Source: a virus
Length of the DNA: 41,239 bases
Reading direction: 5' to 3' (one strand)
IMG/VR virus record: IMGVR_UViG_3300037200_000043
Span: 1-41,239 of that record
The position numbers and the translations under genes were made by a program. The notes beneath the pieces were generated by a model. That model saw nothing but the letters and a program-made list of their open reading frames with translations. It ran no database searches and was not told the DNA's origin. Shown here piece by piece: positions 10,928 to 38,897 of the stretch; position 1 is the stretch's first letter; each line of letters begins with the position of its first letter.

Positions 10928-10964
10928 ACCGACACATCCGGTCGGCTTTACGGAAATTATAGCA
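10928..10964 (-). promoter_or_regulatory. extended -10 promoter followed by a 5' hairpin leader
   Basis: Minus-strand TGCTATAAT (10956-10964) puts the start near 10949. The hairpin GCCGAC-loop-GTCGG (10929-10946) comes next, then a U-rich tract and TAGGAG before the ATG at 10904. The hairpin shares GCCGACCGG with the leaders at 15980 and 35342. Confidence 0.55.
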
Positions 10965-10975
10965 TAGGTTATACT
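10947..10975 (+). promoter_or_regulatory. possible plus-strand promoter for the chaperonin genes
   Basis: TTTACG (10947), a 17-base gap and TATACT (10970-10975) face right. The start would be near 10982, two bases before the GroES-like ATG, giving an almost leaderless message. It overlaps the divergent minus-strand promoter, so the two could compete. Confidence 0.35.
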
Positions 10976-10983
10976 TAGGGACA

Positions 10984-11271
10984 ATGAGTAAGAACATCCC
11001 GTTAGGAGAAAATGTCCTTATTAAGGCCAGAACTTCAAGACAAAGTAAATACTTCAATGCACCTAAGTCAGAGTTTGATCAGACACAAACAGTAGGTACT
11101 CTAATGCTCATAGGGCCAGATGTACCACCTAGTTATGAAAAGATAGTCGGCAAGATTATCTACTTCCCATCCTTTCAAGAGGTCAAGGCTACCGCCGATC
11201 CAGATGCTCCGGAAGTATTTGTTAATTATAAGTTAATCGCAGGTTATGAAGAGGAGAGCAATGAACAATAA
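10984..11271 (+). CDS. groES: GroES-like co-chaperonin
   Basis: 95 residues. The order of conserved pieces fits GroES: IPLGENVLIKA at the N-terminus (PLxDRVLVK in bacteria), a central mobile-loop region (about 20-32), then VGTLMLIGPDVP, VGKIIYFPSF and VNYKLIAGYE. The canonical GGI mobile-loop tripeptide is absent, so the loop is divergent, as expected if it is matched to its own GroEL. It overlaps groEL by 11 bases. Assigned mainly from motif order and from the adjacent GroEL. Confidence 0.75.
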   Translation: MSKNIPLGENVLIKARTSRQSKYFNAPKSEFDQTQTVGTLMLIGPDVPPSYEKIVGKIIYFPSFQEVKATADPDAPEVFVNYKLIAGYEEESNEQ

Positions 11272-12844
11272 GTTTGCACGTAAAGTTGTCTACGGTCAAG
11301 AGTACGAAGAAGCTAAACTAAGAGGTTCTAACCTATCTAAATTGGTAGCTAAGTCCGCTTATGGCGTAGGTGCCGGCAATGTGATGATAGAGCGTAACTA
11401 TGGTGCTCCTGTTACTTCTAGAGACGGTGTCAGTAACCTTGAACAGTTGCATGTATCAGAACCTGTAGAGAATATGGTTATACAGACAATTGTAGGTGCG
11501 GCTCAACGGACTAACCAGCATGCAGGTGACGGAACTACGGCGACTGCTATCCTAGCCTCTGACCTGTATGAACAGGGTGTTAAGGATATGCGCGATACTG
11601 GTAAAAGCCCTATTCAGATATCTAACCAAATCCTTGAAACTTCACGTGAAGTCTATAAGTTCATAGACAGTAAAAAAGTTAAAGCTAATAAAAAAGACCT
11701 TAAGAACATTGCTCGTATCTCTTCCCATGACAACGCAATTGGAGATATGATTTCATTTGTCTTTGAGAAGTTTGGCGGTGACGGCGGAGTTGTCGTAGCT
11801 ACCCATGAGGGTGATGATACTAGTATGTCTATGGAAGATGGCTTTTATTTCAAGAAGGGCTTTACTAATCCAGTTTTAACTAATCGTCCAGGCATGAGAG
11901 AGTCCTACTTAACAGATATTCCAGTCTTAGTCATTAGTAAGGTATTAAAAACATCTAATGACTTAATAGGTATTTTTGAGAAGTTAGGTCAATATGCTGA
12001 AGAGGAGCAACATGTCCCCCTAGAATTTCTGATGGTAGCGGATGTTGAGGGCGAAGCATTAAACGGCTTATTGCAAAACGACCGCAAGTATCTTATTCCA
12101 ACTCTAGTTACTCCTCTTGATCACGGTGCTCGTAAAGATGCATTCTTTGAGGATATTGCAACTTATACCAACTCAAAAGTAATTAATAATAATGATTTTG
12201 ACTCTGGCTACTTCGGGCATGCTGACGAAGTGATTGTATCTGCATATACGACCAATATAATCGGCGGTGCGGCCTTAGAAGATATTGCACTTTCAGTAGA
12301 GGATATTGTTAAACAGACAGATGAGACTACCGATGCTTATGACCTTGAGTTCTTGAAAGAACGTAAAGACCGTTTACTCGGTAAAATTGCAACCATATCG
12401 GTTGGCGGCGAAACTGAGGAGATTAGAATTGAAAAGAAGCTCAGAGTTGACGATGCTGTGAACGCAGTACGATCAGCTAAACTCTATGGTATTCTGCCAG
12501 GTGAAGGTAGCGCACTATTATGGGCTGCCAAAGAAATATCTAACGCTGATACATATGGGAATCTGTTTCTCTATTTACTCGAAAACTGCGGCATTGATGA
12601 CCCATCCAGTTATGCCTATAAGGTTGTAGATGAGTCTAAGTTTGGTTTTGGTTATGATATCTCTGGTGAGTCACTACCTGAAGGGACTGATCGACAAACA
12701 CTTATAAATCTGCGTGAATATGGCATCGTTGACCCTGTGCAGGTTGTTTTAGAGACTGTCCGTAACGCTGCTGCTGTAGCTGCGCTGCTAGTTACAAGTA
12801 CCACAGGTATGTACTACGAAAACCGAGATGTTAAACAGGACTAA
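11261..12844 (+). CDS. groEL: phage-encoded GroEL-type chaperonin (type I)
   Basis: 527 residues from ATG 11261, SD GAGGAG. ATPase residues are kept: AGDGTTATA with Asp90 (GroEL Asp87) and RVDDAV with Asp398, plus SRDGV near residue 55 and GILPGEGSAL for the nucleotide pocket. The apical region (FGGDGGVVVATHEGDD...GFYFKKGF) is recognisable but divergent. The Gly-Met-rich tail of bacterial GroEL is missing; the protein ends ENRDVKQD. It probably folds phage virion proteins with the GroES-like partner. Not a fragment, since all three domains are present. Confidence 0.93.
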   Translation: MNNKFARKVVYGQEYEEAKLRGSNLSKLVAKSAYGVGAGNVMIERNYGAPVTSRDGVSNLEQLHVSEPVENMVIQTIVGAAQRTNQHAGDGTTATAILASDLYEQGVKDMRDTGKSPIQISNQILETSREVYKFIDSKKVKANKKDLKNIARISSHDNAIGDMISFVFEKFGGDGGVVVATHEGDDTSMSMEDGFYFKKGFTNPVLTNRPGMRESYLTDIPVLVISKVLKTSNDLIGIFEKLGQYAEEEQHVPLEFLMVADVEGEALNGLLQNDRKYLIPTLVTPLDHGARKDAFFEDIATYTNSKVINNNDFDSGYFGHADEVIVSAYTTNIIGGAALEDIALSVEDIVKQTDETTDAYDLEFLKERKDRLLGKIATISVGGETEEIRIEKKLRVDDAVNAVRSAKLYGILPGEGSALLWAAKEISNADTYGNLFLYLLENCGIDDPSSYAYKVVDESKFGFGYDISGESLPEGTDRQTLINLREYGIVDPVQVVLETVRNAAAVAALLVTSTTGMYYENRDVKQD

Positions 12845-12846
12845 CG

Positions 12847-13185
12847 ATGAATTTAGTATATTTAATTATCGGCATACTTTTACCGATAACTATCTTGCAA
12901 ATACATAAAATAGTCAGAAAGATTATTAGTAAAAGGAAAGCTAAACCTGTTGTTAAGACAGATGACATCAAACAGCTCAGAGCCGAAATAGGCGAACTGA
13001 GAAGTGTTGTTAAAGACATCCACGATGATATGAAACAGTTACAAGAGGTAAATAACGAGACCCAGAAGCGCAATGAGCTATTATTCCCTCAGAACTTTGA
13101 TAAAGATAAGGTAGAGGGTAAAACAGTTTTTGTAAAAGACGGAGAGGAAAAGCCTTATGAAACGGTTGACTGGCGCAGTCGATAA
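12847..13185 (+). CDS. membrane-anchored coiled-coil protein, 112 residues
   Basis: Starts three bases after groEL. An N-terminal membrane segment (LVYLIIGILLPITILQI) is followed by a basic stretch (KIISKRKAKP) and a helical coiled coil (about 40-75), then a globular-looking end. Co-transcribed with the chaperonin genes. Function unknown. Confidence 0.6.
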   Translation: MNLVYLIIGILLPITILQIHKIVRKIISKRKAKPVVKTDDIKQLRAEIGELRSVVKDIHDDMKQLQEVNNETQKRNELLFPQNFDKDKVEGKTVFVKDGEEKPYETVDWRSR

Positions 13186-13411
13186 AAACGGTAACTTTGT
13201 AGTTGGGAAAGTACCTAAGTCTGCTCGGCATCCTGGCTATAAACAGGAGCATACGGAGATGCAACGCCTCACGCATGCCGCAGAGTTAGTGCAAGCCTTT
13301 AATCCCGACGGCACAAGGAATACAGCTTATAGCACCTTATATCACGAACAGGCTATTACGCAGGGAATAATTGATGAAGACCCATTACCGGATTTTCAGA
13401 GGTTTGAGTAA
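13157..13411 (+). CDS. hypothetical protein, 84 residues
   Basis: ATG at 13157 lies in the last codons of the preceding gene, with GGAGAGG upstream. Begins MKRLTGAVDKNGNFVVGKVP and is otherwise polar with no motif known to me. Last plus-strand gene here; it overlaps the end of the convergent gene by 16 bases. Confidence 0.6.
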   Translation: MKRLTGAVDKNGNFVVGKVPKSARHPGYKQEHTEMQRLTHAAELVQAFNPDGTRNTAYSTLYHEQAITQGIIDEDPLPDFQRFE

Positions 13412-13614
13412 AGATCGAGGTTCTGGGTTAGTATAATTATATCTTCTAAAAGAGTACTCTTTTGTAATAATAAGAGTTTGCATTCTCGGTCAAGAATATC
13501 GTATTGTAAGTTCAACTCCCTCAATCTGTCAGCTCCTATATTTAGGAGTATCTCTTGATAAGCAAGAGCCTCTGCTAATTCAGATGCTCTCTTTGCCATA
13601 TCGTGAGTGGTCAT
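13396..13614 (-). CDS. small coiled-coil protein, 72 residues
   Basis: Continuous predicted helix with Leu/Ile heptads (LAEALAYQEILLNIGADRLRE...). It starts three bases downstream of the end of the preceding late gene. A perfect 16-base palindrome (13448-13463) lies inside its 3' half. Probably a late accessory protein; unknown function. Confidence 0.55.
   Translation of the reverse strand: MTTHDMAKRASELAEALAYQEILLNIGADRLRELNLQYDILDRECKLLLLQKSTLLEDIIILTQNLDLYSNL
13448..13463. terminator. palindromic A/T-flanked hairpin between convergent transcripts
   Basis: AAAAGAGTACTCTTTT is a perfect palindrome with A-run and T-run arms, sitting where the rightward chaperonin operon and the leftward late operon meet. 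It could act as a weak bidirectional terminator. The stem is short and has almost no loop. Confidence 0.3.
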
Positions 13615-13617
13615 AAC

Positions 13618-14094
13618 TCAGTCTTTTTGTGATGCTTTGGGGAAACCTAAGTACACCTGAGCTAAGAGTTCTTTTACTCTGACGCTACGCTCTTGTAAAA
13701 CTCGTGTATTGAGACCTGTATCATTTTTAATAGGTCGTTCCCTTGCATCTAGCTGAAGCTGGATATTTATAATGAAGGGAATTGCTACATAAGCGAACTC
13801 GCCCGAGATTGTGGCGTTTTCATCAGGGCCAATCTTTAATGTCTCACGCTTGCCAGGGACAATAGACATACCGTCCTCAGATAACTCTTCTCGACCGTAA
13901 ACTCTCTTAGTAATCTTAGTAGATACAACTTTTTCATTCTTACTTGGCAAATAGGGAATTTCTAGTGGTAACTTTGTGACATTTTTAACTCCTACCATGT
14001 CATAAGGGTCAAACATTTCTCGCAAAATCTCGCCTAAAGACTTCTGACCGTTGGATATAGCGGTGCTTTGATCTTCTTTAATAATCTCAGCCAT
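13618..14094 (-). CDS. late hypothetical protein, 158 residues
   Basis: Has its own promoter (14131) and a good SD (AAGGAG). Pattern: short helical N-terminus, then beta-rich core (TKLPLEIPYLPS, GEFAYVAIPFIINIQLQLDARERP) and a basic C-terminal helix. Placed after the capsid and decoration-like genes, it may be a minor virion or assembly protein. I do not recognise the family. Confidence 0.6.
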   Translation of the reverse strand: MAEIIKEDQSTAISNGQKSLGEILREMFDPYDMVGVKNVTKLPLEIPYLPSKNEKVVSTKITKRVYGREELSEDGMSIVPGKRETLKIGPDENATISGEFAYVAIPFIINIQLQLDARERPIKNDTGLNTRVLQERSVRVKELLAQVYLGFPKASQKD

Positions 14095-14130
14095 TAGTTC
14101 TCCTTTTTAGTGATTGCCTAGTCAATTATT

Positions 14131-14139
14131 ATTATAACA
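14131..14139 (-). promoter_or_regulatory. extended -10 promoter (TGTTATAAT)
   Basis: Minus-strand TGTTATAAT directly after the terminator that closes the capsid unit. Start near 14124, then AAGGAG and ATG at 14094. No convincing -35. Confidence 0.5.
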
Positions 14140-14148
14140 CACAAAAAA

Positions 14149-14168
14149 CACCCTCTTTTGCAAGGGTG
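14149..14168 (-). terminator. intrinsic terminator after the decoration-like gene
   Basis: On the minus strand a CACCCT/AGGGTG stem with an eight-base loop is followed by a run of six T. It ends the transcript coming from the capsid genes at 14188, and a new promoter follows at once. Confidence 0.75.
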
Positions 14169-14187
14169 CTAATTGCTAGAAGTATTT

Positions 14188-14805
14188 CTACTCTATGTTT
14201 ATGATAGTACCAGTTGCAGCACTGTAGCCTGCGACCTGCGTGTATCCATAAGTTACTGCTGGAGACGTTAATGCTGGTAGGGCGTTTACGGCGTAACCAC
14301 AGCTTATGTTACCTGAGGATGTAGACGTTGATGCGTAATCAGGAGAGGTATAAACACTAACCGTGTCTGTACCAGGAATTAACGCCACTGTGTTTGGTAG
14401 GACGTCCGAGCTTGAAAACGTAAGTGTAAAGTTACCTGCTGCTGCGTTCCCTGTGTTATGAGCAATCCGTAGACTGTAGACTTGAGAACCTGAAGAGACT
14501 GATATCTTAGCATAACCACCGGCGTAAGCGTCGGCTGTTACGGCTCCAGTTGAGACAATCGTAAGTGTCTGTGAAGGGGCTACTAGATTATTGGCATTTT
14601 GACCGTTTGCTACAGTCGTAATAGCTAGACCGGTAGCTGAGGTAATAACTGCGTATACCTGTGTACCTGCTGCAATAGCAGAACTGTTCGAGAACTGTAC
14701 ATATTTATACCTGCGTCCACCAGACAAGCGGAATACACTACCTAGGGTCTGTAGTGGTCCTGATGTAAGGGTTCCAACACCAAGTGCTAATGCTTCTGTT
14801 TCCAT
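14188..14805 (-). CDS. putative capsid decoration / head fibre protein
   Basis: 205 residues, rich in Ala, Ser, Thr, Gly and Val, with beta-strand periodicity and few charged residues, typical of virion surface proteins. The N-terminal METEALALGVGTLTSG and GRRYKYVQFSNSSA suggest a small beta-barrel. Position immediately downstream of the major capsid gene supports a decoration or head-associated role. SD AAGGA. Confidence 0.55.
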   Translation of the reverse strand: METEALALGVGTLTSGPLQTLGSVFRLSGGRRYKYVQFSNSSAIAAGTQVYAVITSATGLAITTVANGQNANNLVAPSQTLTIVSTGAVTADAYAGGYAKISVSSGSQVYSLRIAHNTGNAAAGNFTLTFSSSDVLPNTVALIPGTDTVSVYTSPDYASTSTSSGNISCGYAVNALPALTSPAVTYGYTQVAGYSAATGTIINIE

Positions 14806-14823
14806 GATATTATCCTTATCCTA

Positions 14824-15951
14824 TTAACTTACGTTTGTAATTGCACTAATCTTAGCTTGACGTCGTGGCTGGTTTGAAGTTAGCTGACCAAAGTAAGTGA
14901 TGACTGCGGTTTCAGACAACTGGTTTGGTACTCGCATAAAATCACGCATCTGCCAGATTGATTCAAGTGCTTTAGGAGCACCCTTGCTACCACTTGCGTT
15001 AATGTTAGCATCTGGAGCACCACCAGCAACGCCACGGGTTACTTTCATTTGACTAGGAATGAATCGTTGGTTGTGCATAGGAACTTTGAACAGGTTAAGG
15101 TAATTGCTGTTAAGCAAGTACAGAATACCGACAGGAGCGCTGTCATCTTTGAAGAATGAAGCTGCGCGGTAAGACATACCAGTGTATCCACCGACTGCAC
15201 TCATACCGCTAGACAAACGGATTTCACTAGGAGCATCACTTCGAGTAGCATCTTGAGCAAGGTCTGAACCAGTAGTGATATAACGGCCTTGGTTAGTTGG
15301 CTGGAATAGGCTTTCTAGTAATGTCCATACTGCCGACGGAGTAATTGCGAAGTCAGTAGTTTCTGAAGCGATACCACCAGCTGAAGCAGCGTCAATAGCT
15401 TGGCTAATTGTGCCAAGGGCTAGTGTTCCACCAGCTGCAGGATATACTTGTGCGTTTACCCATGGGTTAGTTGCACGAGTTACACCACCGTAAGAAGCTG
15501 TATTCGCACCAGCGTCCACAACGTTCTCTAGGCCGTAAATGTTGTTGCCACCACCGGCGCTATAAACACCAGCTGCAAAACGTAGGCGTAGTGATTCTTG
15601 AGCTGCGTCCATTTTCTGCTCTACAAGGCGAACGGCTGCCCGCATATTATTTTCGTTAATGCTTCGCTCTGCGTCAGAGATAGCGACAGTTTGCATAACA
15701 AGTGATGGACCGAATGATAGGGTTTGCATTGTATTTGTAACTGCGAATGACAGAGTATCCATTGAGTTAATGAAACCACCAGTTGGAGAGGTTGAGGTCA
15801 TTACTGGGTCGATCTGAATAGGACCACCGCCCCAGCGCTGTGCTTTGGTGCTTAAATACTTAACAAGAGTTGTGGAGTAGGTAATGTTATCTACTACACG
15901 AGGAGCAATCTTTGTGTAGGTGACTAAGCCTAAATCTGATGTAAACTGCAT
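14824..15951 (-). CDS. major capsid protein (HK97-fold type)
   Basis: 375 residues. Placement after scaffold and portal, length and content fit a major capsid protein: an N-terminal arm, a long helix with MRAAVRLVEQKMDAAQESLR (spine-helix-like, about 103-122), then beta-rich segments (IYGLENVVDAG...) and a C-terminal domain with FKVPMHNQRFIPS. No obvious protease delta domain precedes it; the separate acidic scaffold gene fills that role. It has its own promoter-hairpin leader. Confidence 0.85.
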   Translation of the reverse strand: MQFTSDLGLVTYTKIAPRVVDNITYSTTLVKYLSTKAQRWGGGPIQIDPVMTSTSPTGGFINSMDTLSFAVTNTMQTLSFGPSLVMQTVAISDAERSINENNMRAAVRLVEQKMDAAQESLRLRFAAGVYSAGGGNNIYGLENVVDAGANTASYGGVTRATNPWVNAQVYPAAGGTLALGTISQAIDAASAGGIASETTDFAITPSAVWTLLESLFQPTNQGRYITTGSDLAQDATRSDAPSEIRLSSGMSAVGGYTGMSYRAASFFKDDSAPVGILYLLNSNYLNLFKVPMHNQRFIPSQMKVTRGVAGGAPDANINASGSKGAPKALESIWQMRDFMRVPNQLSETAVITYFGQLTSNQPRRQAKISAITNVS

Positions 15952-15979
15952 ATTTTACCTTTCTTATATAAATAAAAAA

Positions 15980-16017
15980 CCGACCATGCCGGTCGGCTCT
16001 ATGTTAAGAGTATAACA
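15980..16017 (-). promoter_or_regulatory. promoter with terminator-like 5' hairpin before the capsid gene
   Basis: Minus-strand TGTTATACT (16009-16017) gives a start near 16002. The perfect stem CCGACC/GGTCGG (15980-15996 with flanking pairs) follows within about five bases, then six U and an AU-rich stretch, GAAAGG and the ATG at 15951. Read alone it looks like an intrinsic terminator, yet it lies between the promoter and its gene. Confidence 0.6.
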
Positions 16018-16021
16018 CCAA

Positions 16022-16267
16022 TTACTTTTTGTTTGCAACAGCCAATTTAGTATCTTTCTTTTCTACCTTTTTCTCTATGATAGCAGGGTCAAAATATTTA
16101 CGTGTTGAACTAAGTTTTGCCTCTGTCAACAGGCGTTCGACGAATGCTAAAGCAAGCTCATACTCGTCTGGAATCGGCCGACCGAATACTGCCTTCGATA
16201 ATTTGCTGCCCTCTTCCTCAGATAGTAAATCCTTTTTAACAAATAGTGCGATAATAAAATTAATCAT
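16022..16267 (-). CDS. small hypothetical protein, 81 residues
   Basis: Lies between scaffold and capsid genes with AAGGAAG upstream of ATG 16267. The N-terminal third is hydrophobic (MINFIIALFVKKD), the middle helical, and the C-terminus Lys-rich (EKKVEKKDTKLAVANKK). Possibly a head-assembly accessory; no family recognised. Confidence 0.6.
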   Translation of the reverse strand: MINFIIALFVKKDLLSEEEGSKLSKAVFGRPIPDEYELALAFVERLLTEAKLSSTRKYFDPAIIEKKVEKKDTKLAVANKK

Positions 16268-16276
16268 ATGGCTTCC

Positions 16277-17254: not shown

Positions 17255-17276
17255 AAACTAAATACTCCTTTCGGAT

Positions 17277-17285
17277 ATTATAGCA
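17277..17285 (-). promoter_or_regulatory. extended -10 promoter for scaffold
   Basis: Minus-strand TGCTATAAT 23 bases before the scaffold ATG, with AAAGGAG between. It sits in the gap after the portal gene. Confidence 0.5.
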
Positions 17286-17286
17286 T

Positions 17287-19719: not shown

Positions 19720-19746
19720 AATATCTCCTTAAGTATACACTGTAAT

Positions 19747-20673: not shown

Positions 20674-21767
20674 TATAGAGTATTAGGTAATATATTACTC
20701 TTCAGCTGTTGAAGTTGAGATTGTTCAGCAGCTATTGTGTTGTTGATACCTGAATTAGCATCATTATTAATGGTCTTTCCAAGAATAGGTATGCTGAGAG
20801 TCCAGCCATATGCGCCAGCAGATTCAGCTGCCTCTTCCTGGTTTTTAAGATTTTCATTACTGTTTAACTGAGACTGTAAGGTCGCAATCTGTGCTTTTTG
20901 CTTGTTATTATTCGATGTAATCAATGTTTGTGCTTGTTCATTGAAACTAGCTAGCTGTTTGTTATATGCAATTTGCTGATCGGTTAAGCCTGCTTGGGCT
21001 GCTTGATTTACTCCTGTTTCGGTTGCTTGATAAGCTTGTGCCTGCTGTAATGCTTGTGTAGAGGGTGCTAGCATAGCTTGAGCTGCTTGATTAGCGCCTG
21101 TCATGATAGCCTGGATATTAGAACCTACTAATCCTCCCTGAGCAACTGCCTGTTGGGATAGGGTATTTAATGTATTGGCATAATTTGCCATTGTATTGTT
21201 TTGGCTTGTAGCAGCACCAGTATAGGCATTGATCGAATTTGTATTCTGACCCAGCTGATAAGTCATGTCCTGACCAGTAAAAGTAGATGCTGCATTGGCT
21301 TTTCCTAGTTCGGTTGACTGAATTGAATTATTAGCACCAATAGCATTATTAAATTGGTTTTGAATGTCCGCCTGTCTGTTCGCTGCTCCAACGGCGTTAT
21401 AGCCTCCCGATCCACCCATACTAGCCAGCTGATCATTGGCTTGCCCTAACTGCCCTGTCTCTTGAGCGATATTTTGATCTGCTTGATTAAGCCTCGTTTT
21501 ATCAAAGCCCATTGTATTGAGCTGTTGCTGTTCGGCGGTGTTGAAGTTGCTTTCATTCTGAGCCTGATTTGAATAGGTAGCCCCAAGAGCATCTAGAGCA
21601 GCTGCGCTCTGATTAGCAAGTTGCCCCTCGGAATTAACATTTGCATTAGCTGCATTTGCGGCCGTCTGAGCATTGGCCGCATTTGTAGTGTCAGTGTTAT
21701 AGGTTGAATTAGCGTCGTTAGTATAGTTAGCTAGACTATTTGCATAGTCGGCCGTAGTAGGCTCCAT
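20673..21767 (-). CDS. putative DNA ejection / internal virion protein 2
   Basis: 364 residues, of the same Ala/Asn/Gln-rich helical type as its neighbour, with a glycine-rich break (MGGSGGYNAVGAAN) and a hydrophobic loop near the end (GAYGWTLSIPILGK). TAATG overlaps on both sides show co-translation with the other two proteins. Confidence 0.55.
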   Translation of the reverse strand: MEPTTADYANSLANYTNDANSTYNTDTTNAANAQTAANAANANVNSEGQLANQSAAALDALGATYSNQAQNESNFNTAEQQQLNTMGFDKTRLNQADQNIAQETGQLGQANDQLASMGGSGGYNAVGAANRQADIQNQFNNAIGANNSIQSTELGKANAASTFTGQDMTYQLGQNTNSINAYTGAATSQNNTMANYANTLNTLSQQAVAQGGLVGSNIQAIMTGANQAAQAMLAPSTQALQQAQAYQATETGVNQAAQAGLTDQQIAYNKQLASFNEQAQTLITSNNNKQKAQIATLQSQLNSNENLKNQEEAAESAGAYGWTLSIPILGKTINNDANSGINNTIAAEQSQLQQLKSNILPNTL

Positions 21768-23959
21768 TAGAAGTTACCGACATTCCCAGCCATGCTAGTA
21801 AGTGCCGGGATTGAACCACCGCCCTGAGCAACAGATGGAGCACTTCCAGCCACACCGAGAGCGTTAAGCTGTGCCTGAGCATTAGCTGCTTGAGTTTTAT
21901 ATGTGTTTTCAGCTGTGCCAGGGATTAGACCTAAGATCCCACCAAGTATGCCACCCTGTCCCATTTGGCCTCGTGCAGCAAGTAGGTTAGCGGCAGCTGT
22001 TCTAGCAGCCTGATTTTGGTTAGCGTTTGCTAACAGGGTTTGACCCATAGTCCCTGCTTCTCCAGCATTAGTGTCAAAAGTAGGAGCAAAGACTGATCGT
22101 ATCTCTCCCTCTTGGCCTAAGTATCTTTGTAAAGCGTTAGACTGATTTAATATGTTTTGCGTCTGTTGATACTGTGGGTTGTTTAATTCCGCATTTGCTT
22201 GGCTTGCTTGGTTAGACGTACCGACAGCATTAGCTCCAAGACCCAATGCGCCTATTATTCCTGCTAGTAGGGCTTTTTTTCCTAGTGGACTCATTCCTTT
22301 TCCTCCTGTATTAGTTACTGTACCGCCTAAATCTGATGCGCCAGCAGGAAATGCCGTGGCTTCTCCTGGTTTGGCTATAGCCTTTGAAGCCGTACGAGCA
22401 GCTTTTACTCGCATTTTACCAGCAGTTCCAGATCCCATTATGTTTTTAGATAATCCTCCACGTCCTCCTGCAGCAAGATCATATATAGACGCCCCACCTG
22501 TAGCCTTAGAATACGCTTTACTGGCATTTACCCAAGGAGCTGTAAAACTACGGAGCTGATTAACATTACTTATTGTTCCATCGGATAATCCTTTTTGGAG
22601 TGCAGCGTATTGCGTAGGATTTGACTCGGCAAAGCCTGATTCTTGCAGATTACTTAATACGTTTTGAGCACCTTCTTTAGTAACAGCTATTTGTCCAAGT
22701 TGATCTTTGAGCGCACCAGATATGCCGTTATATAAATCGGCTTCACCATTTGACTTAGCTTTTGAGGCCATTGATGCAAAGTTTCTCTGGGTCTGAAGCA
22801 CATCTACCGGATTAGCATTTTTCATACCTTGAGATGTAAGTTCATAGCCACCTGTTGGAGATTTGATAAGATCACCAGCTGCTACTGCTTCATCAACGGT
22901 TCGATAACCATTAGCACCTGCTCCAGCAAGCGTGACGTTCTGATCCTGAATAGCATTATTGAATATTTTACGTTGAGCGTCCGTATATGCCACTCCACCA
23001 GAACCTTTTCCTGTAGTACCACGTGTAGCCTGATTAACAAATGAGTTACGGTTATTATCCCCTGTTAAATCAGTCACGTCTATAGTTGTCGGATTAGCGA
23101 CACTGTCTCCAACTGCTGCCTGCTTAACCATATTATTGACTGCATTATCAACACCATAATCTTGCCCTGTAAGGGTTTGGGCGTCACGTGCCATAGTAGG
23201 GTAGTCTGAATAGCCAAGATCAAGAGCCTGGTTTGCTAAGTTATTCATGTCTCCGGCAGGTAGCTTCATACCAGCACCCTGCATGGTGGTTGTCATTCCT
23301 GCTAAACCTTCATTTCGTATACGTTGCTGTAAGGGGGATAGCTGAGGAGTGGTATTAGCTGCTTGTGGAGTATAGCGAGACGTGGCATCTGCTCCGGTTC
23401 TTGGAGTAATAGTAACTGGCTCCTCGGGGGTTGGTGCAAGATTAAGTTGGGTTCCAGAAGGAGTTTCTGCAGGGGTTGCTGGAGGGGTAAACGTGTTATT
23501 AGTATCAGCTTTAACCGTCCCCGTTTCAGGATTCGTAATAAGATTTACGTGTCCTTGACCTGACTCTGGGTCTAGATTCGTAGGTGCAATACCTGGATTG
23601 TCGGCTGAGGTAACGTTTCCTTGTGGGTCTACAGTAAACCTAGGTTCAGTCGGTGACGTAGTTGCTGCGTCTGTAGCTCCACTATCAGCTAGATCAGAAG
23701 CGGCAGTATCTGCTACATCAGCGGCTGCTTTACCGCCTGCGCCCATCATTCCTCCCATTAAGCCATCTGATATTCCTGTCTGAAGATCTTGTCCAAGATT
23801 CTGCGACTTTCCCTGAATCGCATTAGAAGCGGCCGATGCGACTCCTCCAAGAGCCATACGTGCAGGAATGCCAATCTCTGGCACAATGAAAGGTAAGATA
23901 TTTAATACTGAACCGAGGATACCAGATAATGGATTACTGCCCGATGATTGTGGTTGCAT
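21767..23959 (-). CDS. putative large DNA ejection / internal virion protein 3
   Basis: 730 residues. Gly/Ala-rich hydrophobic stretches at the N-terminus (SVLNILPFIVPEIGIPARMALGG) and near residues 560-580 (KKALLAGIIGALGLGANAV) could insert in the host membrane, while the middle is Asn/Gln/Thr-rich with helical modules. Resembles large injected proteins with membrane-active ends. No lytic transglycosylase motif seen. First gene of the ejection set, with its own promoter-hairpin leader. Confidence 0.55.
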   Translation of the reverse strand: MQPQSSGSNPLSGILGSVLNILPFIVPEIGIPARMALGGVASAASNAIQGKSQNLGQDLQTGISDGLMGGMMGAGGKAAADVADTAASDLADSGATDAATTSPTEPRFTVDPQGNVTSADNPGIAPTNLDPESGQGHVNLITNPETGTVKADTNNTFTPPATPAETPSGTQLNLAPTPEEPVTITPRTGADATSRYTPQAANTTPQLSPLQQRIRNEGLAGMTTTMQGAGMKLPAGDMNNLANQALDLGYSDYPTMARDAQTLTGQDYGVDNAVNNMVKQAAVGDSVANPTTIDVTDLTGDNNRNSFVNQATRGTTGKGSGGVAYTDAQRKIFNNAIQDQNVTLAGAGANGYRTVDEAVAAGDLIKSPTGGYELTSQGMKNANPVDVLQTQRNFASMASKAKSNGEADLYNGISGALKDQLGQIAVTKEGAQNVLSNLQESGFAESNPTQYAALQKGLSDGTISNVNQLRSFTAPWVNASKAYSKATGGASIYDLAAGGRGGLSKNIMGSGTAGKMRVKAARTASKAIAKPGEATAFPAGASDLGGTVTNTGGKGMSPLGKKALLAGIIGALGLGANAVGTSNQASQANAELNNPQYQQTQNILNQSNALQRYLGQEGEIRSVFAPTFDTNAGEAGTMGQTLLANANQNQAARTAAANLLAARGQMGQGGILGGILGLIPGTAENTYKTQAANAQAQLNALGVAGSAPSVAQGGGSIPALTSMAGNVGNF

Positions 23960-23980
23960 GTTGTCTCCTATAAAAAAATA

Positions 23981-24021
23981 GACCGTCAGAATGCTGACGG
24001 TCGTCTTTAGTTATTGTAGCA
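23981..24021 (-). promoter_or_regulatory. promoter with 5' hairpin leader before the ejection-protein operon
   Basis: Minus-strand TGCTACAAT (24013-24021), start near 24006, then a perfect nine-base-pair stem GACCGTCAG/CTGACGGTC with a four-base loop (23981-24002), a run of U, TAGGAG and ATG at 23959. Same order as at 15980, 29115, 35342 and 10928. Confidence 0.6.
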
Positions 24022-24024
24022 CAA

Positions 24025-28128: not shown

Positions 28129-28129
28129 T

Positions 28130-29095
28130 TTAATACCCTGGGCTTACCGGAGCTATACCCATGTAATCCCAAGCGTTCATACCTGTTACTTCCATATCGC
28201 TTGAAACACGAGAAGTTGACCTTGCGCTGAAAGACTGACGGAAGTCATCAAGACACCCTTGGAATAGAGCCATATAGTCTTGTTCGGTTTGTGTGTCTTT
28301 TCGTCCGGCGTAGAACTGAGCAGCGGCGTTATATGATCCAGCTAATTGAACCATGTCTGGTAAGTCTTCCATTTGGCCGATTCTAAACTGGGCTGTTGCG
28401 GAAGTCTGACCTGGTAACTGGAAATTCTGTCCGAGTACAATGTCTGATTCATCGGTGATTGATGCTACTTGGTAAACATGGCCGTCTGTCCCGTCAGTTG
28501 TCATGAAATAAAGATTGTTACAGGGCACATTTATGATCGGCTCTGAGAACGACACCAAGTTACTATCGTTAACTACGTCAGCCGTAACGGGTGTACTGGG
28601 GTTCGCTGTGGTGTAAATATTAGAAGTGCTACTGATATCGTCAATAGCCATTTCAGGTGGTGTTGCTTCGTAGGTGATAATCAGTCCAGCAGTTTGAGCT
28701 GCGCCTGGAGTTGGCCAGAGTCCTACTTGATTGTGTCCTCTAACAAAATAGTATGTTGGCCAGGGGAAAGACAGTTGAGGCCAGACATTAATCTCGTTCC
28801 ATTTTGCAATAGTTGGCACTTCAATTAAAGGTAACGTTGCAAACAGACCCTGAGCCACAACCTGAATAGTCGTAGGGCGGATACAGTCTGGTGCCGTTTG
28901 GTAATATTGCTGGTTAGCTACTAAGTTACTGGTCAAAGTATTTTGCGTATAGCCAACTCTAGCAGTTGTAAATATCTTAGCAATGCCACGATTAACATCA
29001 CGCTTCAGGTCAATCAGTAAATCAGCAGGGATATTCCTAGGATTGACTCCACAGAATTTAGCTGCTCTTTTATATAAATCTGTAAAAGTATCCAT
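28130..29095 (-). CDS. head-tail connector / adaptor-type protein
   Basis: 321 residues. The helical N-terminus (DTFTDLYKRAAKFCGV..LIDLKRDVNRGIAKIF), a middle with FPWPTYYFVRGHNQVGLWPTPG and LIITYEATPPEM, and a helical C-terminus (AQFYAGRKDTQTEQDYMALFQGCLDDF) match the layout of adaptor proteins that bind below the portal; LWPTP is typical of that family. Own promoter-hairpin leader at 29115. Confidence 0.65.
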   Translation of the reverse strand: MDTFTDLYKRAAKFCGVNPRNIPADLLIDLKRDVNRGIAKIFTTARVGYTQNTLTSNLVANQQYYQTAPDCIRPTTIQVVAQGLFATLPLIEVPTIAKWNEINVWPQLSFPWPTYYFVRGHNQVGLWPTPGAAQTAGLIITYEATPPEMAIDDISSTSNIYTTANPSTPVTADVVNDSNLVSFSEPIINVPCNNLYFMTTDGTDGHVYQVASITDESDIVLGQNFQLPGQTSATAQFRIGQMEDLPDMVQLAGSYNAAAQFYAGRKDTQTEQDYMALFQGCLDDFRQSFSARSTSRVSSDMEVTGMNAWDYMGIAPVSPGY

Positions 29096-29114
29096 TTAAT
29101 CTCCAATTAAAATA

Positions 29115-29153
29115 GCAGACCCATCAGCAGGTCTGCTTTTCTATATTTTAGCA
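29115..29153 (-). promoter_or_regulatory. promoter with 5' hairpin leader before the connector gene
   Basis: Minus-strand TGCTAAAAT (29145-29153) gives a start near 29138, followed within two bases by the seven-pair stem GCAGACC/GGTCTGC (29115-29136), a U-rich tract, TTGGAG and ATG at 29095. Confidence 0.55.
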
Positions 29154-29175
29154 TGAAACAGAAACTTTTGTTTTG

Positions 29176-30087: not shown

Positions 30088-31794
30088 TTAAACTTCCGTC
30101 CATGATGATGTTGCTGTGGACTCACTTTGCCAGTTACTTGTAGTAGCTTCTGAGCCAGTCCATGTCGATATTATAGCATTTGTCGTTTGGCTAGTAGTGC
30201 CGTCCCAGGTGTAATTAGAGTCCCACGTTCGATTAGCATCGTCCCACGTATCTATTGCACCTTGAGGATTGACTAACCATATATCTGGGTTCGGATCTCC
30301 AATAGATGACCATGAATCAGGATAAATAACCTCAGGAGTCCAAGTACTTGTTCTTATTATTTTAGCAACGACTACCTGCGTACCGCCTGTGGCGGTGATC
30401 GTGGCAGCTCTCTGTGCTATAACAGCATCTATTTGAGCACTCAGGCTTTGTGTCCCACCCGTGACTGTAAGAGTAGCGTATGTCTGAGTGACTGAAGCGC
30501 TAGCCTCTATTATGGCTACCACTGTTTGAGTCCCCCCCGTAGCGGTGAGCGTAGCATGTGACTGAGATACGGAAACATCATTTATAGAAGCTACTGATTG
30601 TGTACCCCCCGTAGCGGTGACTGTAGCTCCAAGTTGTGTAACAGAAGTACTTCCTCCTGAACTCACACTTTGAGTGCCACCTGTCGCAGTGACGGTTGCA
30701 GCAGACTGACTGATGCTAACTATCCCGACACTTGCAGTGCTCTGTGTGCCACCGGTGGCGGTTATGTTCGCACCTGATTGCGAGATAGAGACATCGCGAA
30801 CACTAAGTATAGTTTGAGTACCACCAGTGGCTGTGACACTAGCCCCACTCTGTGTAATGCTACTGTCCTGAATCGTTGCAACAACTTGCGTCCCTCCGGT
30901 TGCCGTAATCGTTGCTCCACTCTGGCTGACAGATACATCATTAACAGTTGCGATCGCCTGCGTACCACCAGTGGCCGTAATCGTTGCGTGAGTTTGAGTG
31001 ACTGAAGCATCCACCTGAGCAGCGATACTCTGAGTACCTCCGGTAGCCGTGATGGAAGCTCCGCTCTGACTAATAGCACCGATACTGACTGCGGTTACCG
31101 ACTGAGTACCGCCAGTGGCTGTCACCGATGCCGCTACCTGACTAATAGAAACATCTTGTATCGCAGCCACACTCTGTGTTCCACCCGTCGCAGTTACTGA
31201 AGCCCCGACCTGAGCAATACTTACATCACGAACCGTGGCTACAGACTGTGTACCTCCACTAGCAGTGACTGAGGCTGCTGCCTGAGAAATCGAAACGTCC
31301 TGTATAGCCGTTACTACTTGTGTGCCACCGGTCGCAGTAACTGAGGCGGCCGACTGACTAATATTTATCTGAGTAGATTGCGTACCTCCGGTGGCTGTGA
31401 TCGTGGCGGCCGACTGACTGATGCTGGCCGAAGTTTCTGCTACAACTGTTTGTGTACCGCCGCTAGCGGTTATGGTTGCCCCGACTTGACTGATTGCCAC
31501 AACATTAACCGAAGCAACAGTTTGCGTACCGCCAGTTGCTGTTATCGTAGCTCCTGTTTGGCTAATAGCTACATCGTTAACGGTTGCTACGACCTGCGTA
31601 CCACCGGTCACAGTCAAAGTAGCGGCACTTTGGGAAATAGCTACGTCTTGAATAGCAGCTATGCTTTGAGTGCCGCCGGTCGCAGTCACGGTTGCTGCTA
31701 ATTGTGTAACAGAAGCATTAACTACACTACTAGCAAAATAATCAAAATTCTGGACTAGTGGTTTGAAAGGCTGGCTACGCCCAAACCTAGCCAT
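30088..31794 (-). CDS. repeat-rich fibre protein with 19 copies of an ATGGTQ module
   Basis: 568 residues. Nineteen tandem modules of about 22 residues fill residues 30-450; each reads roughly SISQSxAxxTATGGTQxVAxxxDV, with GGTQ invariant. The pattern suggests a beta-solenoid or spiral shaft. The C-terminal 115 residues are Trp-rich (WTPEVIYPDSW, DTWDDANRTWDSNYTWDG), a likely tip domain. Codons vary between modules while the protein pattern is kept. Probably a long tail or head fibre. Confidence 0.65.
   Translation of the reverse strand: MARFGRSQPFKPLVQNFDYFASSVVNASVTQLAATVTATGGTQSIAAIQDVAISQSAATLTVTGGTQVVATVNDVAISQTGATITATGGTQTVASVNVVAISQVGATITASGGTQTVVAETSASISQSAATITATGGTQSTQINISQSAASVTATGGTQVVTAIQDVSISQAAASVTASGGTQSVATVRDVSIAQVGASVTATGGTQSVAAIQDVSISQVAASVTATGGTQSVTAVSIGAISQSGASITATGGTQSIAAQVDASVTQTHATITATGGTQAIATVNDVSVSQSGATITATGGTQVVATIQDSSITQSGASVTATGGTQTILSVRDVSISQSGANITATGGTQSTASVGIVSISQSAATVTATGGTQSVSSGGSTSVTQLGATVTATGGTQSVASINDVSVSQSHATLTATGGTQTVVAIIEASASVTQTYATLTVTGGTQSLSAQIDAVIAQRAATITATGGTQVVVAKIIRTSTWTPEVIYPDSWSSIGDPNPDIWLVNPQGAIDTWDDANRTWDSNYTWDGTTSQTTNAIISTWTGSEATTSNWQSESTATSSWTEV
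30360..31700 (-). repeat. 19 tandem ~66-bp coding repeats in the fibre gene
   Basis: Each unit codes for A-[ST]-x-T-A-[ST]-GGTQ. DNA copies differ at many third-codon positions, unlike the pentapeptide array at 5708. The protein unit is therefore conserved by selection. Unit length varies slightly (one shortened unit near residue 125). Confidence 0.9.
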
Positions 31795-33128
31795 TAGAAG
31801 CTTCTAGCTCTATTAATGGCCTGTAATATTGGCTTAATGGGTTGGGCGATGAAAGTTGTTGCATTGCCTGAAGCATCCAACTCGACCACAATGCTAGAAA
31901 ATTGCGAAGCCGAAGAACTCCCCCATGTAATAGTTGTCCCTGTTTCGCCACCATTTAGCGACATTAACGACAATCCAGCAGTGGGCGTAGCATAACCTAA
32001 ACTACTGTCTTGATAATAAACAGGCGATGAACGTGGGCTTATGCCACCAGGATTAGTAGCGTTAAATACCGCACCAATAATCACATTCGTGGTAGTCGCA
32101 GCACCGCCAAAAGCAGGAGCAGGAGTAGCGGATGCAGCATGATTAGCCTGAACTCCGCTTTGTTTCGACGCCGTAGCTCCAGTCTTAGTCATGCCTTTGA
32201 CGCTATAAACAGCCAGACCACCACCTGTGGTCGTGCCAGGTGCTTCAGTAAAGACCGTTGAGGAAGCCGAACCAATTAGAGCAGTCCTAATATAGACTTC
32301 CATAAGGTCAGCGCTAGAATTTTTCAAGGCAGATGTAATCTGAGTATAAGTACCACTACTATTATTGTCTGTCGGGGCTGTTACTGTTGTATTACCAGTC
32401 GCTGCCCGAACAATAACAATCAAGTCATTAACTGCTGGCGTGGCAGTAAAAGTATGAGTACCCGATGTCGTATTGAAAGTACTACCCAGTAATACTGCAC
32501 TAGGAGTAGCCGTATCACTAAAAGTGACGATAGCACATTGTGAAATCTGTCCACTCGGACCACCAGCGGTTGAAGCGTAACTACCTGTTGAACTGACTAT
32601 TCTCTCCTCGACAGCCGAACTCCAACCGGCGAGAGCTTGAGTCTGAATGTTGCTAGACTCTGACCCAACCGTATAAGTAAACGAACTGGAATCTTCCGTA
32701 CCGAAAATACCAAGTATCAATTCGTTAGCATGATTAGTAGCTATTGTTGGCGAAGTGCAACTTGTACCAGTAATCTGTTGAGTGGCAATTACGTTCACTA
32801 CATTTGAAGCAGCCAACCCCGCGACTTCGTAGATGAATATACTAGCATCATTAAAGCCTGGTACGGAGGTTACGGTTGGCTTAGTCGCTGCTGCGTTATA
32901 TGCTATGTAGACTTGAAAGCCCACATTCATACTTGCTTGGTATAGATTAGCTACTAAGGTATAGGTATTCGTGCCATCACTAGGAGTGGCTATATTAGTA
33001 ATATTATTATCTACACCAACAATAGCTATGATGGCGTTATGGAGGGTTACATTACTGCCAAAAGTAGCCGAAACACTATCGGTGGCGGCAGATTGTCCCG
33101 ATGCTCTTTGTACTACTGAGATAGCCAT
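31794..33128 (-). CDS. virion protein with two tandem beta domains, 444 residues
   Basis: Two halves are recognisably alike (NVTLHNAIIAIVGVDN... and HTFTATPAVNDLIVIVRAATGN..., each followed by TPSDGTNTYTLVAN / APTDNNSSGTYTQIT), so the protein is an internal duplication of a beta-sandwich. Each half ends in a conserved 'FS..VVE'-type strand. Such domains are frequent in phage virion and adhesion proteins. Its start overlaps no gene; its stop is fused to the next by TAATG. Confidence 0.6.
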   Translation of the reverse strand: MAISVVQRASGQSAATDSVSATFGSNVTLHNAIIAIVGVDNNITNIATPSDGTNTYTLVANLYQASMNVGFQVYIAYNAAATKPTVTSVPGFNDASIFIYEVAGLAASNVVNVIATQQITGTSCTSPTIATNHANELILGIFGTEDSSSFTYTVGSESSNIQTQALAGWSSAVEERIVSSTGSYASTAGGPSGQISQCAIVTFSDTATPSAVLLGSTFNTTSGTHTFTATPAVNDLIVIVRAATGNTTVTAPTDNNSSGTYTQITSALKNSSADLMEVYIRTALIGSASSTVFTEAPGTTTGGGLAVYSVKGMTKTGATASKQSGVQANHAASATPAPAFGGAATTTNVIIGAVFNATNPGGISPRSSPVYYQDSSLGYATPTAGLSLMSLNGGETGTTITWGSSSASQFSSIVVELDASGNATTFIAQPIKPILQAINRARSF

Positions 33129-33137
33129 AGTTGGCCC

Positions 33138-33671
33138 CTAGACTTCTATAATCACATACACGTACATGTTAACGGTAGTGCCGAAAGTCGCACGTATACG
33201 CAAACATTTGCCAGGGTTTAATTCTGGCTCACGACCAAGAGGGAACTGTTTGATGTACTGGTTTGTCGGTGCCACAAGCTGAGAATCAAATTCACGGGTA
33301 GCTGTGATAGAACCCTCTGTGCCAGCAGTAGTTGCAAAACCAGTTAGTGCCGTTCCGAGGTTAAATGGTACTCCTGATGAACCCGATGTGTTGGCGGGAG
33401 CGTTAGGATCGTTGAATGGGATAATATCAGCAACAGCAGACGCGGTAGTAACAGTAGCAAAAATAGCGCCAGTTTCCACTAGTTCAACCTGACCTGGAGT
33501 TGCAGCAGCAGAGCCATCAAATGAACAGCCCCACTCTACAACACGCGCTGCGGGGAATGTGCTAGATAAAGCTATCTGAAGCATTGTGCGAATAGCTGCG
33601 CCAGTAGGCTGCTTAACAGGTGCGGCCGTAGTGGTGGCAGTTGTGTTAGATATTATGTAAAGTTGTGCCAT
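33138..33671 (-). CDS. virion protein, 177 residues
   Basis: Beta-rich, with N-terminal AQLYIISNTTATTT and a C-terminal GREPELNPGKCLRIRATFG...VYVIIEV. The spacing resembles small virion proteins of unplaced metagenomic phages that follow the fibre genes. Predicted to be surface or tail-associated; no function can be given. Confidence 0.5.
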   Translation of the reverse strand: MAQLYIISNTTATTTAAPVKQPTGAAIRTMLQIALSSTFPAARVVEWGCSFDGSAAATPGQVELVETGAIFATVTTASAVADIIPFNDPNAPANTSGSSGVPFNLGTALTGFATTAGTEGSITATREFDSQLVAPTNQYIKQFPLGREPELNPGKCLRIRATFGTTVNMYVYVIIEV

Positions 33672-33679
33672 TATTAAAC

Positions 33680-34120
33680 CTAACTTGAAGCTAAGTTGAA
33701 TAAACCATTAGTTGCGTCCCAAGTAATCGTAAAGGTTCCACCACCTGAAGCCGTTTGTGAACCGCCGAAGTCAACATTAGCAACAGGATGCGTAGTCGTA
33801 CCGTCATAGACCTTAGCTGCGACTGCCGTAAATCCTGCACCGGTAGCTGTCCAAGTAGAAGTTCCTGAACCGCCAGTAATCTTGTAGAGCTGAGGTGTTG
33901 TAGTAGCAGAGCTGAGGGTGCGTGTACCTGCTGAAACACCGCCAGTAGTGTATCCGTTCCCGTTCGCAACTTCCGTACCGCTCGTAGTGTAGGCTACATC
34001 AGCGGCTGTGAAAGTGTCGGCACTGAACAGAGCAACACTCATCGTATCGGTTGTCCAGGTAAATGCTTTTGTACCCATATCATTCAGGGTATAGGTATAG
34101 ACGTGTGTAACGACTGCCAT
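33680..34120 (-). CDS. virion protein, 146 residues
   Basis: Starts AVVTHVYTYTLNDMGTKAFTWTTD and continues as Thr/Ser/Gly-rich strands ending TFTITWDATNGLFNLAS. This 'small beta-barrel with WD..G' pattern is common among phage structural proteins. Unknown exact role. Confidence 0.5.
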   Translation of the reverse strand: MAVVTHVYTYTLNDMGTKAFTWTTDTMSVALFSADTFTAADVAYTTSGTEVANGNGYTTGGVSAGTRTLSSATTTPQLYKITGGSGTSTWTATGAGFTAVAAKVYDGTTTHPVANVDFGGSQTASGGGTFTITWDATNGLFNLASS

Positions 34121-34121
34121 A

Positions 34122-34358
34122 TTATTCTCCTGCCTTTGCTAGCTGTTGTCCCTTAATGCCCTCTGGTGGTTCTACAGCTGGATATGGTATTTGACTTCTA
34201 TCCGTTTGCACATGAACGCTAATTTTAGGATTACCGTCAGCATCTTTTACATTATGATCTGTAGTGATTATATGGCCACTAGGATGAGCTTTTACAGTAG
34301 ATATAACTCCATTACCGTGGTCAATCTGATATTCTTTGTCTGGTTCTGTGTCTGCCAT
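34122..34358 (-). CDS. small hydrophilic protein, 78 residues
   Basis: Polar and His/Asp-rich (KEYQIDHGNGVISTVKAHPSGHIITTDHN). SD AAAGGAG. No membrane segment or motif. Linked to the following gene by a one-base gap. Confidence 0.5.
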   Translation of the reverse strand: MADTEPDKEYQIDHGNGVISTVKAHPSGHIITTDHNVKDADGNPKISVHVQTDRSQIPYPAVEPPEGIKGQQLAKAGE

Positions 34359-34369
34359 ATTATTCTCCT

Positions 34370-34747
34370 TTAAACTAATTCAAATGCGAAATATATATAC
34401 GTTCCACTTGCGCCTGGTGTGATTACTATAGTCTGAAACGCTTCACCAGCACAAGGCAGAGTTACGGTTTGATTAGCTACCAGCCCAAACGTACCACTTT
34501 GACCATTAAACGTAACAGTTGAGGTTTGAGAGGTTGCGTCATGTACTAGATGAATGGCTGTTGCATTACTAGGGATTTGGAGCGTGACAGGTGAAGTTCC
34601 ATTCACGGGTGATGTGACAGGTGTAGTGGGTGTTGCATCTTCAGCGAGAACTGAGTTAGCAACTTGTATCCCCGTATGGCTTCCGTCACGTGGGAGATTA
34701 TTAAACGGTGATACTGGGTTTCCTTCGTTTGCTCGATCTGGGTTCAT
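34370..34747 (-). CDS. virion protein, 125 residues
   Basis: N-terminal MNPDRANEGNPVSPF tail, then a Thr/Val-rich beta domain (SPVTLQIPSNATAIHLVHDA...TVTLPCAGEAFQTIVITPG). Has the look of a small virion surface domain. Preceded by AGAAGGGA SD. Confidence 0.5.
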   Translation of the reverse strand: MNPDRANEGNPVSPFNNLPRDGSHTGIQVANSVLAEDATPTTPVTSPVNGTSPVTLQIPSNATAIHLVHDATSQTSTVTFNGQSGTFGLVANQTVTLPCAGEAFQTIVITPGASGTYIYFAFELV

Positions 34748-34758
34748 GTAAATCCCTT

Positions 34759-35316
34759 CTAAAATACTCGTGCTATTGAAGCAGCGGTTGCAGAACTAAA
34801 TACCAATCTGAACTGTGCGAGGCCAGTTGTACCGCTTGCGACCGTGAAGAGACCAAATGTTGGGACACCGTAAGTAGCAACCTGTGCGACCTGCGACTTC
34901 ACTTGACTAGCATCGGGAGTAATTGTGACCGTATTAGCACCGGCTGTATTGTCTATGTAGAAGTCAAAGACTGTACCTTGTACTGCTCCAATGGCTGTAG
35001 CTATGAGTGTCGATGTCGGAAGTGTAATAGTGGTTGCTGCGGCTGAAGTAGAGGTTATGTATCCACTCGCTACCTGTGCAGCTGTGGCGGAAGCCGTGGC
35101 ATTAATCGCTACAGGTGTATGAGTGGTGACAGGAGCGTTCTGCGGAGTTAGTGCAGGTTGCGTGACTGAGCCTTGGACGTTGAGGTTTCCGGTGACAACT
35201 GCAGAGCCAGCTGTAACGGTAGAGGTAGTTTCAATCGGAAGCGCAGAGTTAATTCCAGCATTTTGACTAACGTACGCCGAGTAGTTTTCGATTAATAATC
35301 CGCCTGGTAATGCCAT
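34759..35316 (-). CDS. virion protein, 185 residues
   Basis: First gene of a virion sub-operon with its own promoter-hairpin leader. Beta-rich, with a Thr/Ala-rich middle (AINATASATAAQVASGYITSTS) and a C-terminal module (GTVFDFYIDNTAGANTVTITPDAS...). The TVFDFYI..N pattern is shared with many small capsid or fibre-associated proteins. Exact role unknown. Confidence 0.5.
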   Translation of the reverse strand: MALPGGLLIENYSAYVSQNAGINSALPIETTSTVTAGSAVVTGNLNVQGSVTQPALTPQNAPVTTHTPVAINATASATAAQVASGYITSTSAAATTITLPTSTLIATAIGAVQGTVFDFYIDNTAGANTVTITPDASQVKSQVAQVATYGVPTFGLFTVASGTTGLAQFRLVFSSATAASIARVF

Positions 35317-35341
35317 ATAAATCCCTTCTTAAAATAAAAAA

Positions 35342-35378
35342 ACCGGCCAGTGACCGGTCGGTTGATTAAAGTATATCA
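35342..35378 (-). promoter_or_regulatory. promoter with 5' hairpin leader before the virion block
   Basis: Minus-strand TGATATACT (35370-35378), start near 35363, then AACCG...CCGGTC with loop pairing to GGCCGGTT (35342-35362), six U, GAAGGG and ATG at 35316. Shares CCGACCGG with the leaders at 15980 and 10928. Confidence 0.55.
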
Positions 35379-38788: not shown

Positions 38789-38794
38789 ATAGTC

Positions 38795-38862: not shown

Positions 38863-38864
38863 AG

Positions 38865-38873: not shown

Positions 38874-38897
38874 TAGCTTATAAACAAAGGAGTGAAT

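Follow-up and report, generated by a model that had tools for sequence, protein, structure and literature searches.

Why should a phage place what looks like an intrinsic terminator between a promoter and the gene that the promoter serves? The question arises at five sites in virus record IMGVR_UViG_3300037200_000043, a stretch of 41,239 bases that we analysed whole and call the window; it comes from a tailed phage with its late region on the minus strand. In each of these five leaders, designated A to E, a terminator-like hairpin (T) with a U-rich run lies behind a promoter and before a late gene. The original prediction offered three options for such hairpins: a 5'-stabilising cap, a conditional attenuator, or a barrier to read-through from upstream. 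It missed a second, smaller hairpin, which we designated P0. This predicted hairpin of 3-4 base pairs lies near the RNA 5' end and overlaps T, so that P0 and T are mutually exclusive. The sequence evidence leans to the attenuator among the three options, with the cap and the barrier remaining at lower probability, and we consider the chances about even that each leader is a compact transcription attenuator with P0 as its antiterminator hairpin.

All the parts predicted for the five sites were found at all five (Table 1). Along the minus strand, every leader has the same order: TGn with a -10 box, 7-10 nucleotides (nt), hairpin T, a T-rich run, a Shine-Dalgarno sequence (SD) and an ATG; start sites and distances, here and below, are predictions from the -10 box. 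Each ATG (A, 10904; B, 15951, capsid; C, 23959; D, 29095, adaptor; E, 35316) belongs to a gene that would open a transcription unit, and in the predicted RNA T begins at about +2 to +5. The predicted folding energies of the leader RNAs were -9.3, -14.4, -15.4, -15.1 and -11.2 kcal/mol for A to E, respectively. T is weakest in leader A, and the U run is interrupted in A and D. A sixth late promoter served as an internal contrast: TGTTATAAT at 14139-14131, upstream of the 14094 gene, has no hairpin behind it. It is directly preceded by a terminator-like hairpin (14170-14147, minus strand), which is the conventional order and the opposite of that in the five leaders. The leader feature is therefore not common to every late promoter, and what had been described as a phage-wide late code covers five of at least six.

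Within the window, P0 is 8-12 nt long and is either nested in T or straddles its base. Its loop, GACC, is constant and lies in the 5' arm, where the 3' arm of T must pair. The stems vary yet still pair: 14 of the 15 flanking pairs are Watson-Crick, and only 2 of 120 permutations were as good. Two of the leaders had been thought to carry unrelated stems. All five in fact share GACC in the 5' arm, and it is the complementary flanking triplets that differ (in four leaders; A has two pairs). The claim that structure and not sequence is kept was thus only partly right, because the stems vary but pair while GACC is constant.

To recognise the arrangement elsewhere, we used a strict detector that required a TG-type -10, a hairpin of -7 kcal/mol or lower beginning 4-13 nt later, at least six thymines in 14 nt, an SD and an open reading frame (ORF). 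In the window it returned exactly the five leaders, and in five dinucleotide shuffles none. All five leaders are also present at orthologous genes of a relative at about 75% DNA identity, one 40,352-base contig (loci L003 and L004) whose aligned DNA pieces are roughly 70-79% identical; P0 is kept there in leaders B, C, D and E and is absent in A. Over all loci of our first collection, some of which overlap (e.g. L001 and L087), the strict detector gave 18 matches against 0.4 per shuffle.

Related viral contigs were gathered with terminase and capsid profiles, and a hairpin with a U run was found just upstream of the capsid gene in very diverse members. Among the unique capsid leaders of the first set, 97/149 had a hairpin and T run and 90/149 a promoter as well; dinucleotide shuffles gave 37/447 and 15/447, respectively. 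The enlarged set comprised 279 loci, of which 277 had enough upstream sequence and 185 were unique; one with ambiguous bases was removed, and promoter, hairpin and U run occurred together in 116 of the remaining 184. A wider detector (promoter, hairpin with a cut-off of -8, U run and ATG), applied as a whole-locus scan, found 118 sites in 223 non-redundant loci (2.53 Mb) compared with one in one shuffle, although some of these, on the opposite strand, are likely to be false positives (e.g. in L263 and L271). At least one site occurred in 90 of these loci and at least two in 19. Leader A misses the cut-off, so that this detector recovers four of the five window leaders; it found no site in lambda, T7, P2, phi29 and part of T4 (190,315 bases). 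A chance match was rejected on the strength of the shuffles, the wider scan and these classical-phage controls. Restriction of the leader to the window lineage was also rejected, since many distant capsid relatives carry it, although it is not universal. The shared architecture thus reaches many other phages, as judged by both detectors and by the capsid leaders.

The genes behind the additional leaders were examined for ten proteins from loci with at least two sites. Three matched the SU10 adaptor family, one of them exactly at the cut-off, five matched portal family phrog_156, and two matched neither. At the 118 sites the U run abuts the stem of T, with thymine fractions of 0.91, 0.86, 0.96 and 0.89 at the first four positions, partly by selection. 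In most relatives T begins 14-24 nt after the -10 box and not at the RNA 5' end. Several capsid leaders (L094-L097, L133, L196, L197, L199-L201) have no recognisable SD, and in these the start codon comes after the U run and an A-rich stretch.

P0 recurs in the relatives in a different position. In many of them, 3-4 nt in the spacer between the -10 box and T are complementary to the base of the 5' arm of T, with pairings that include GGAU/AUCC, GGCA/UGCC, GAGU/ACUC and CGAC/GUCG and with over a dozen different complementary 4-mers among the leaders. An explicit search found P0 at 90 of the 118 sites, compared with 47.1 in shuffled spacers (standard deviation 2.8, maximum 53). P0 with at least four pairs occurred at 55 sites, compared with 21.2 (maximum 25). 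Their usual distance from the -10 box, 7-13 nt, places them at the RNA 5' end or close to it. When T was held fixed, 54 of 90 leaders had a P0 score of at least 6, whereas 300 swaps of spacers gave a mean of 12.5 (standard deviation 3.0, maximum 20). The score was reached in 33/37 leaders of the L066 type, 7/8 of the L047 type and 14/38 of the L011 type. Spacer-type P0 occurred in 0/7 leaders of the window, L005 and L006 types; any P0 in these leaders is nested in T.

In folding energy, the spacer alone showed no excess (-0.14 vs -0.12 shuffled), and the spacer with the 5' arm of T folded better at gaps of at least 12 nt (-3.19 vs -1.72 shuffled, n = 82). Against a null that keeps the pairs of T, the pre-terminator RNA was more stable (mean z -1.08 over 124 leaders; p < 0.2 in 71/124), and the ten window-type leaders behaved alike (mean z -1.11). 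The parts, their order, their recurrence and the exclusive overlap of P0 and T are all present in the sequence.

P0 also repeats, as judged by eye, across the leaders of one phage in L246, L247, L303, L175, L212 and L213, and the loops are AU-rich in the L066-type clade. In L175 and L047 the stems differ among leaders of the same phage yet pair (GAGU/ACUC, AGUC/GACU and GAGC/GCUC in L175), with AU-rich loops kept. In L246 (AGCU..AGCU) and L247 (AGCC..GGCU) P0 is nearly identical among leaders within the phage, and CA often follows it, a hint that the sequence is recognised. That P0 is a mere repeat of the 3' arm of T was disfavoured, as L206- and L213-type leaders pair GGAU/AUCC though the AU lies outside the stem of T.

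Attenuation would work as follows. The promoters are of the sigma-70 type, often with an extended -10, and the RNA that they specify can form P0 in its first nucleotides. If T forms, polymerase would stop with about 30-45 nt made, leaving the virion gene off. If P0 persists, whether through a bound factor or through folding that lags behind polymerase, T would be incomplete and transcription would read through into the gene, whose start codon lies within tens of nucleotides of P0 and T. Near-consensus host-type promoters would then be usable for late genes, yet held off until late. In the window, the GACC loop would be the part of P0 that a factor would most obviously recognise. We infer that T terminates, that P0 relieves T, and that the choice between them depends on a factor or on folding kinetics. 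Three features favour attenuation: the U run directly adjoins the stem, a requirement of termination but not of the rival explanations; T is blocked by a conserved hairpin, the layout typical of an antiterminator; and the leaders front virion genes served by host-type promoters, a setting in which timing is important.

Several observations weigh against attenuation. T in the window is far more stable than P0 (-8 to -14 vs -0.5 to -4 kcal/mol); therefore P0 could not win at equilibrium unaided and would need help or kinetics. P0 has only two pairs in leader A and none in the L003 orthologue of A, and there is little P0 signal in the L011-type (mean z -0.37, n = 33) and L142-type (mean z -0.32, n = 6) leaders. 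At sites with a gap below 12 nt, shuffling only the spacer showed no P0 excess (-2.97 vs -3.06, n = 36), because P0 lies within T there; the nested case therefore rests on the null that permutes the pairs of T. Against that null, the 30 nested sites among the 118 (plus-strand sites with a gap below 12 nt and four window sites) gave a mean z of -1.10 with a Wilcoxon p of 1.2e-6, although such p values are overstated because the leaders are related and not independent. The promoter-hairpin-U run pattern is lacking in 68 of the 184 capsid leaders, and L005, the TM7 phage whose capsid is the nearest named one, has no such leader.

The last point on that side is the factor. The original prediction had proposed that an RNA-binding antiterminator be sought in the phage, and domain searches recognised no known antiterminator in the window proteins scanned or in eight records. 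CAT_RBD (PF03123) gave 0/8, with the control matching in 4/14 genomes and with records that may be fragments; the Q proteins PF03589 and PF06530 gave 0/8, unknown Q types not being covered. PF06323 also gave 0/8, but its control gave no match either. Cold-shock and NusG domains were not found in the eight records, and Rfam at the gathering score had no match in the window or in 14 loci with capsid leaders. An 83-amino-acid (aa) protein (35379-35630, minus strand) that adjoins the terminase gene has weak zinc-ribbon matches (TFIIS-like, below the cut-off) and is a candidate transcription factor.

A 5' mRNA stabiliser that doubles as a translation leader, as in T7 gene 10 and ompA, is unlikely but deserves the most attention among the rivals. 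The hairpin would block 5'-end-dependent decay, a 5'-terminal base-pairing mechanism being cited in PMC3997798, and the U-rich stretch and SD would favour ribosome loading, with little or no termination. The position of T at the very start of the window RNAs fits this explanation, as do the presence of the leader before capsid, the most heavily expressed gene type, and the same order of parts in the T7 phi10 leader. It is harder to reconcile with the relatives, most of which have T away from the 5' terminus; it has no need of a U run abutting the stem, and it leaves a conserved P0 competing with T unexplained.

We judged a read-through barrier to be less probable again. Here T would end the transcripts of the upstream late unit, and the RNAs of the adjacent promoter would for the most part continue past T or suffer a small loss. 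The strongest minus-strand terminator-like sites of the late region are indeed the five hairpins and 14170-14147, so that upstream units have few other ends. A barrier would, however, serve equally well upstream of the promoter, as 14170-14147 does, yet T is downstream in all five leaders and in the relatives; nor would a barrier need P0. We also looked at 90 P0 sites for a read-through-specific anti-antiterminator, an upstream segment that would disable P0 in read-through RNA. The result was negative (duplex -4.04 observed vs -4.28 swapped) and counts against the barrier. Either a stabilising or a barrier role may coexist with attenuation. It is very improbable that the hairpin plays no part in termination and instead binds a phage protein, from the virion or otherwise, that would repress translation or tag the RNA: the constant GACC loop in the window and the AU-rich loops of the L066-type clade would suit it, but the abutting U run and the P0/T overlap would go unexplained.

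If attenuation does operate, it may belong to an undescribed late switch, in which a phage-encoded or captured host RNA-binding factor recognises P0 (by the GACC loop in the window, by the AU-rich loop in L066-type phages) and lets transcription of the capsid, portal and adaptor genes escape termination close to the promoter. We put this forward tentatively, as a possible but doubtful new class of antitermination in many uncultivated phages. What is known of the timing of capsid synthesis on host-type promoters, in phages that lack an RNA polymerase of their own, comes mostly from a small number of models. If the reading is true, a small leader with two exclusive folds, recognisable in sequence before capsid, portal and adaptor genes of many uncultivated phages, would be a directly testable late-timing device and would point to an unknown antiterminator. 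It would also caution against annotating leader hairpins as operon ends. Our literature search, with most subscription journals outside its coverage, found no paper on promoter-proximal attenuators before capsid genes in such phages.

Table 1. Positions of the leader parts and neighbouring genes in the window.
Feature	Position	Strand	Details
Leader A extended -10	10956..10964	minus	TGC-TATAAT
Leader A P0	10938..10945	minus	CC-GACC-GG, weak form, 2 pairs only
Leader A hairpin T	10928..10946	minus	-7.7 kcal/mol; then U-rich run 10927-10916
Leader B extended -10	16009..16017	minus	TGT-TATACT
Leader B P0	15988..15997	minus	GCC-GACC-GGC
Leader B hairpin T	15977..15999	minus	-13.3 kcal/mol; U run
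Leader C extended -10	24013..24021	minus	TGC-TACAAT
Leader C P0	23996..24005	minus	GAC-GACC-GUC
Leader C hairpin T	23981..24002	minus	-14.0 kcal/mol; U run
Leader D extended -10	29145..29153	minus	TGC-TAAAAT
Leader D P0	29126..29137	minus	AGCA-GACC-UGCU
Leader D hairpin T	29114..29137	minus	-14.1 kcal/mol; interrupted U run
Leader E extended -10	35370..35378	minus	TGA-TATACT
Leader E P0	35353..35362	minus	ACC-GACC-GGU
Leader E hairpin T	35341..35359	minus	-10.6 kcal/mol; U run
Sixth late promoter	14131..14139	minus	TGT-TATAAT; no leader hairpin
First gene of unit A	10647..10904	minus	85 aa; no Pfam or PHROG match
Major capsid protein gene, opens unit B	14824..15951	minus	phrog_9953, E 2.9e-37
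First gene of unit C	21767..23959	minus	730 aa; no PHROG match
SU10-type adaptor protein, opens unit D	28130..29095	minus	PF24175, E 2.4e-13
First gene of unit E	34759..35316	minus	185 aa; no Pfam or PHROG match
Terminase	35627-37108	minus	late region
GroEL	11246-12844	plus	532 aa; phrog_5725

Among the other features of the window are RecT and RecE-like genes on the plus strand. GroEL is preceded by a 95-aa ORF (both within 10984-12844) that has no Pfam match and is a putative GroES by its position; a chaperonin gene behind a small ORF also occurs in the named TM7 phage (L005) and in MW202566 (L006). On the early side, at 38760-38899 (plus strand), a near-consensus promoter (TTGACA, 17, TGC-GATAAT) is followed by a terminator-like hairpin (38830-38855), another TGTTATACT box and a small membrane-protein-like ORF, a promoter-terminator-promoter arrangement. 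A DNA-level comparison of positions 1-25000 of the window with known phages gave no match, and a scan of genome contigs returned three metagenome-assembled genome contigs, labelled Scalindua, Brocadia and Berkelbacteria.

Compared with known systems, the leaders resemble several in part. They share a hairpin and U run with the ordinary intrinsic terminators found between phage operons, but unlike those (e.g. 14170-14147), T stands behind a promoter and before its gene in 5/5 cases. The T7 phi10 leader has a 5' hairpin with a stabilising role. As in our leaders, its sequence continues with a U-rich stretch, an SD and an ATG, which in T7 opens the major capsid gene (gene 10); however, T7 uses a phage polymerase promoter, has no long U run abutting the stem, and gave no site with the wider detector. 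In lambda, the host-type promoter pR' is followed about 200 nt on by the terminator tR', before the late genes. The leaders likewise have a promoter and then a terminator-like site before a late gene. In lambda, Q loads at a promoter-proximal pause (PMC7171158). Here, unlike in lambda, the terminator lies within about 45 nt, there are several leaders per phage and a competing P0, and no PF03589 or PF06530 protein was found. The closest likeness in anatomy is to the ribonucleic antiterminator (RAT) of the Bgl/Sac systems (BglG, SacY, LicT), a small hairpin of 23-30 nt that partly overlaps an intrinsic terminator and is mutually exclusive with it, as described in PMC4347634. In both, an antiterminator hairpin overlaps a terminator and only one can form, for our leaders as judged by sequence and folding. 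P0 differs from the RAT, a conserved protein site, in being about 8-16 nt with changing stems and in lying at or near the RNA 5' end, and the leaders front virion genes, not sugar genes. By sequence, then, the leaders appear to work like the Bgl/Sac RAT and partly like the lambda late operon while being a member of neither by the tests made; they matched no tested family, and we regard them as a putative new form of transcription attenuation.

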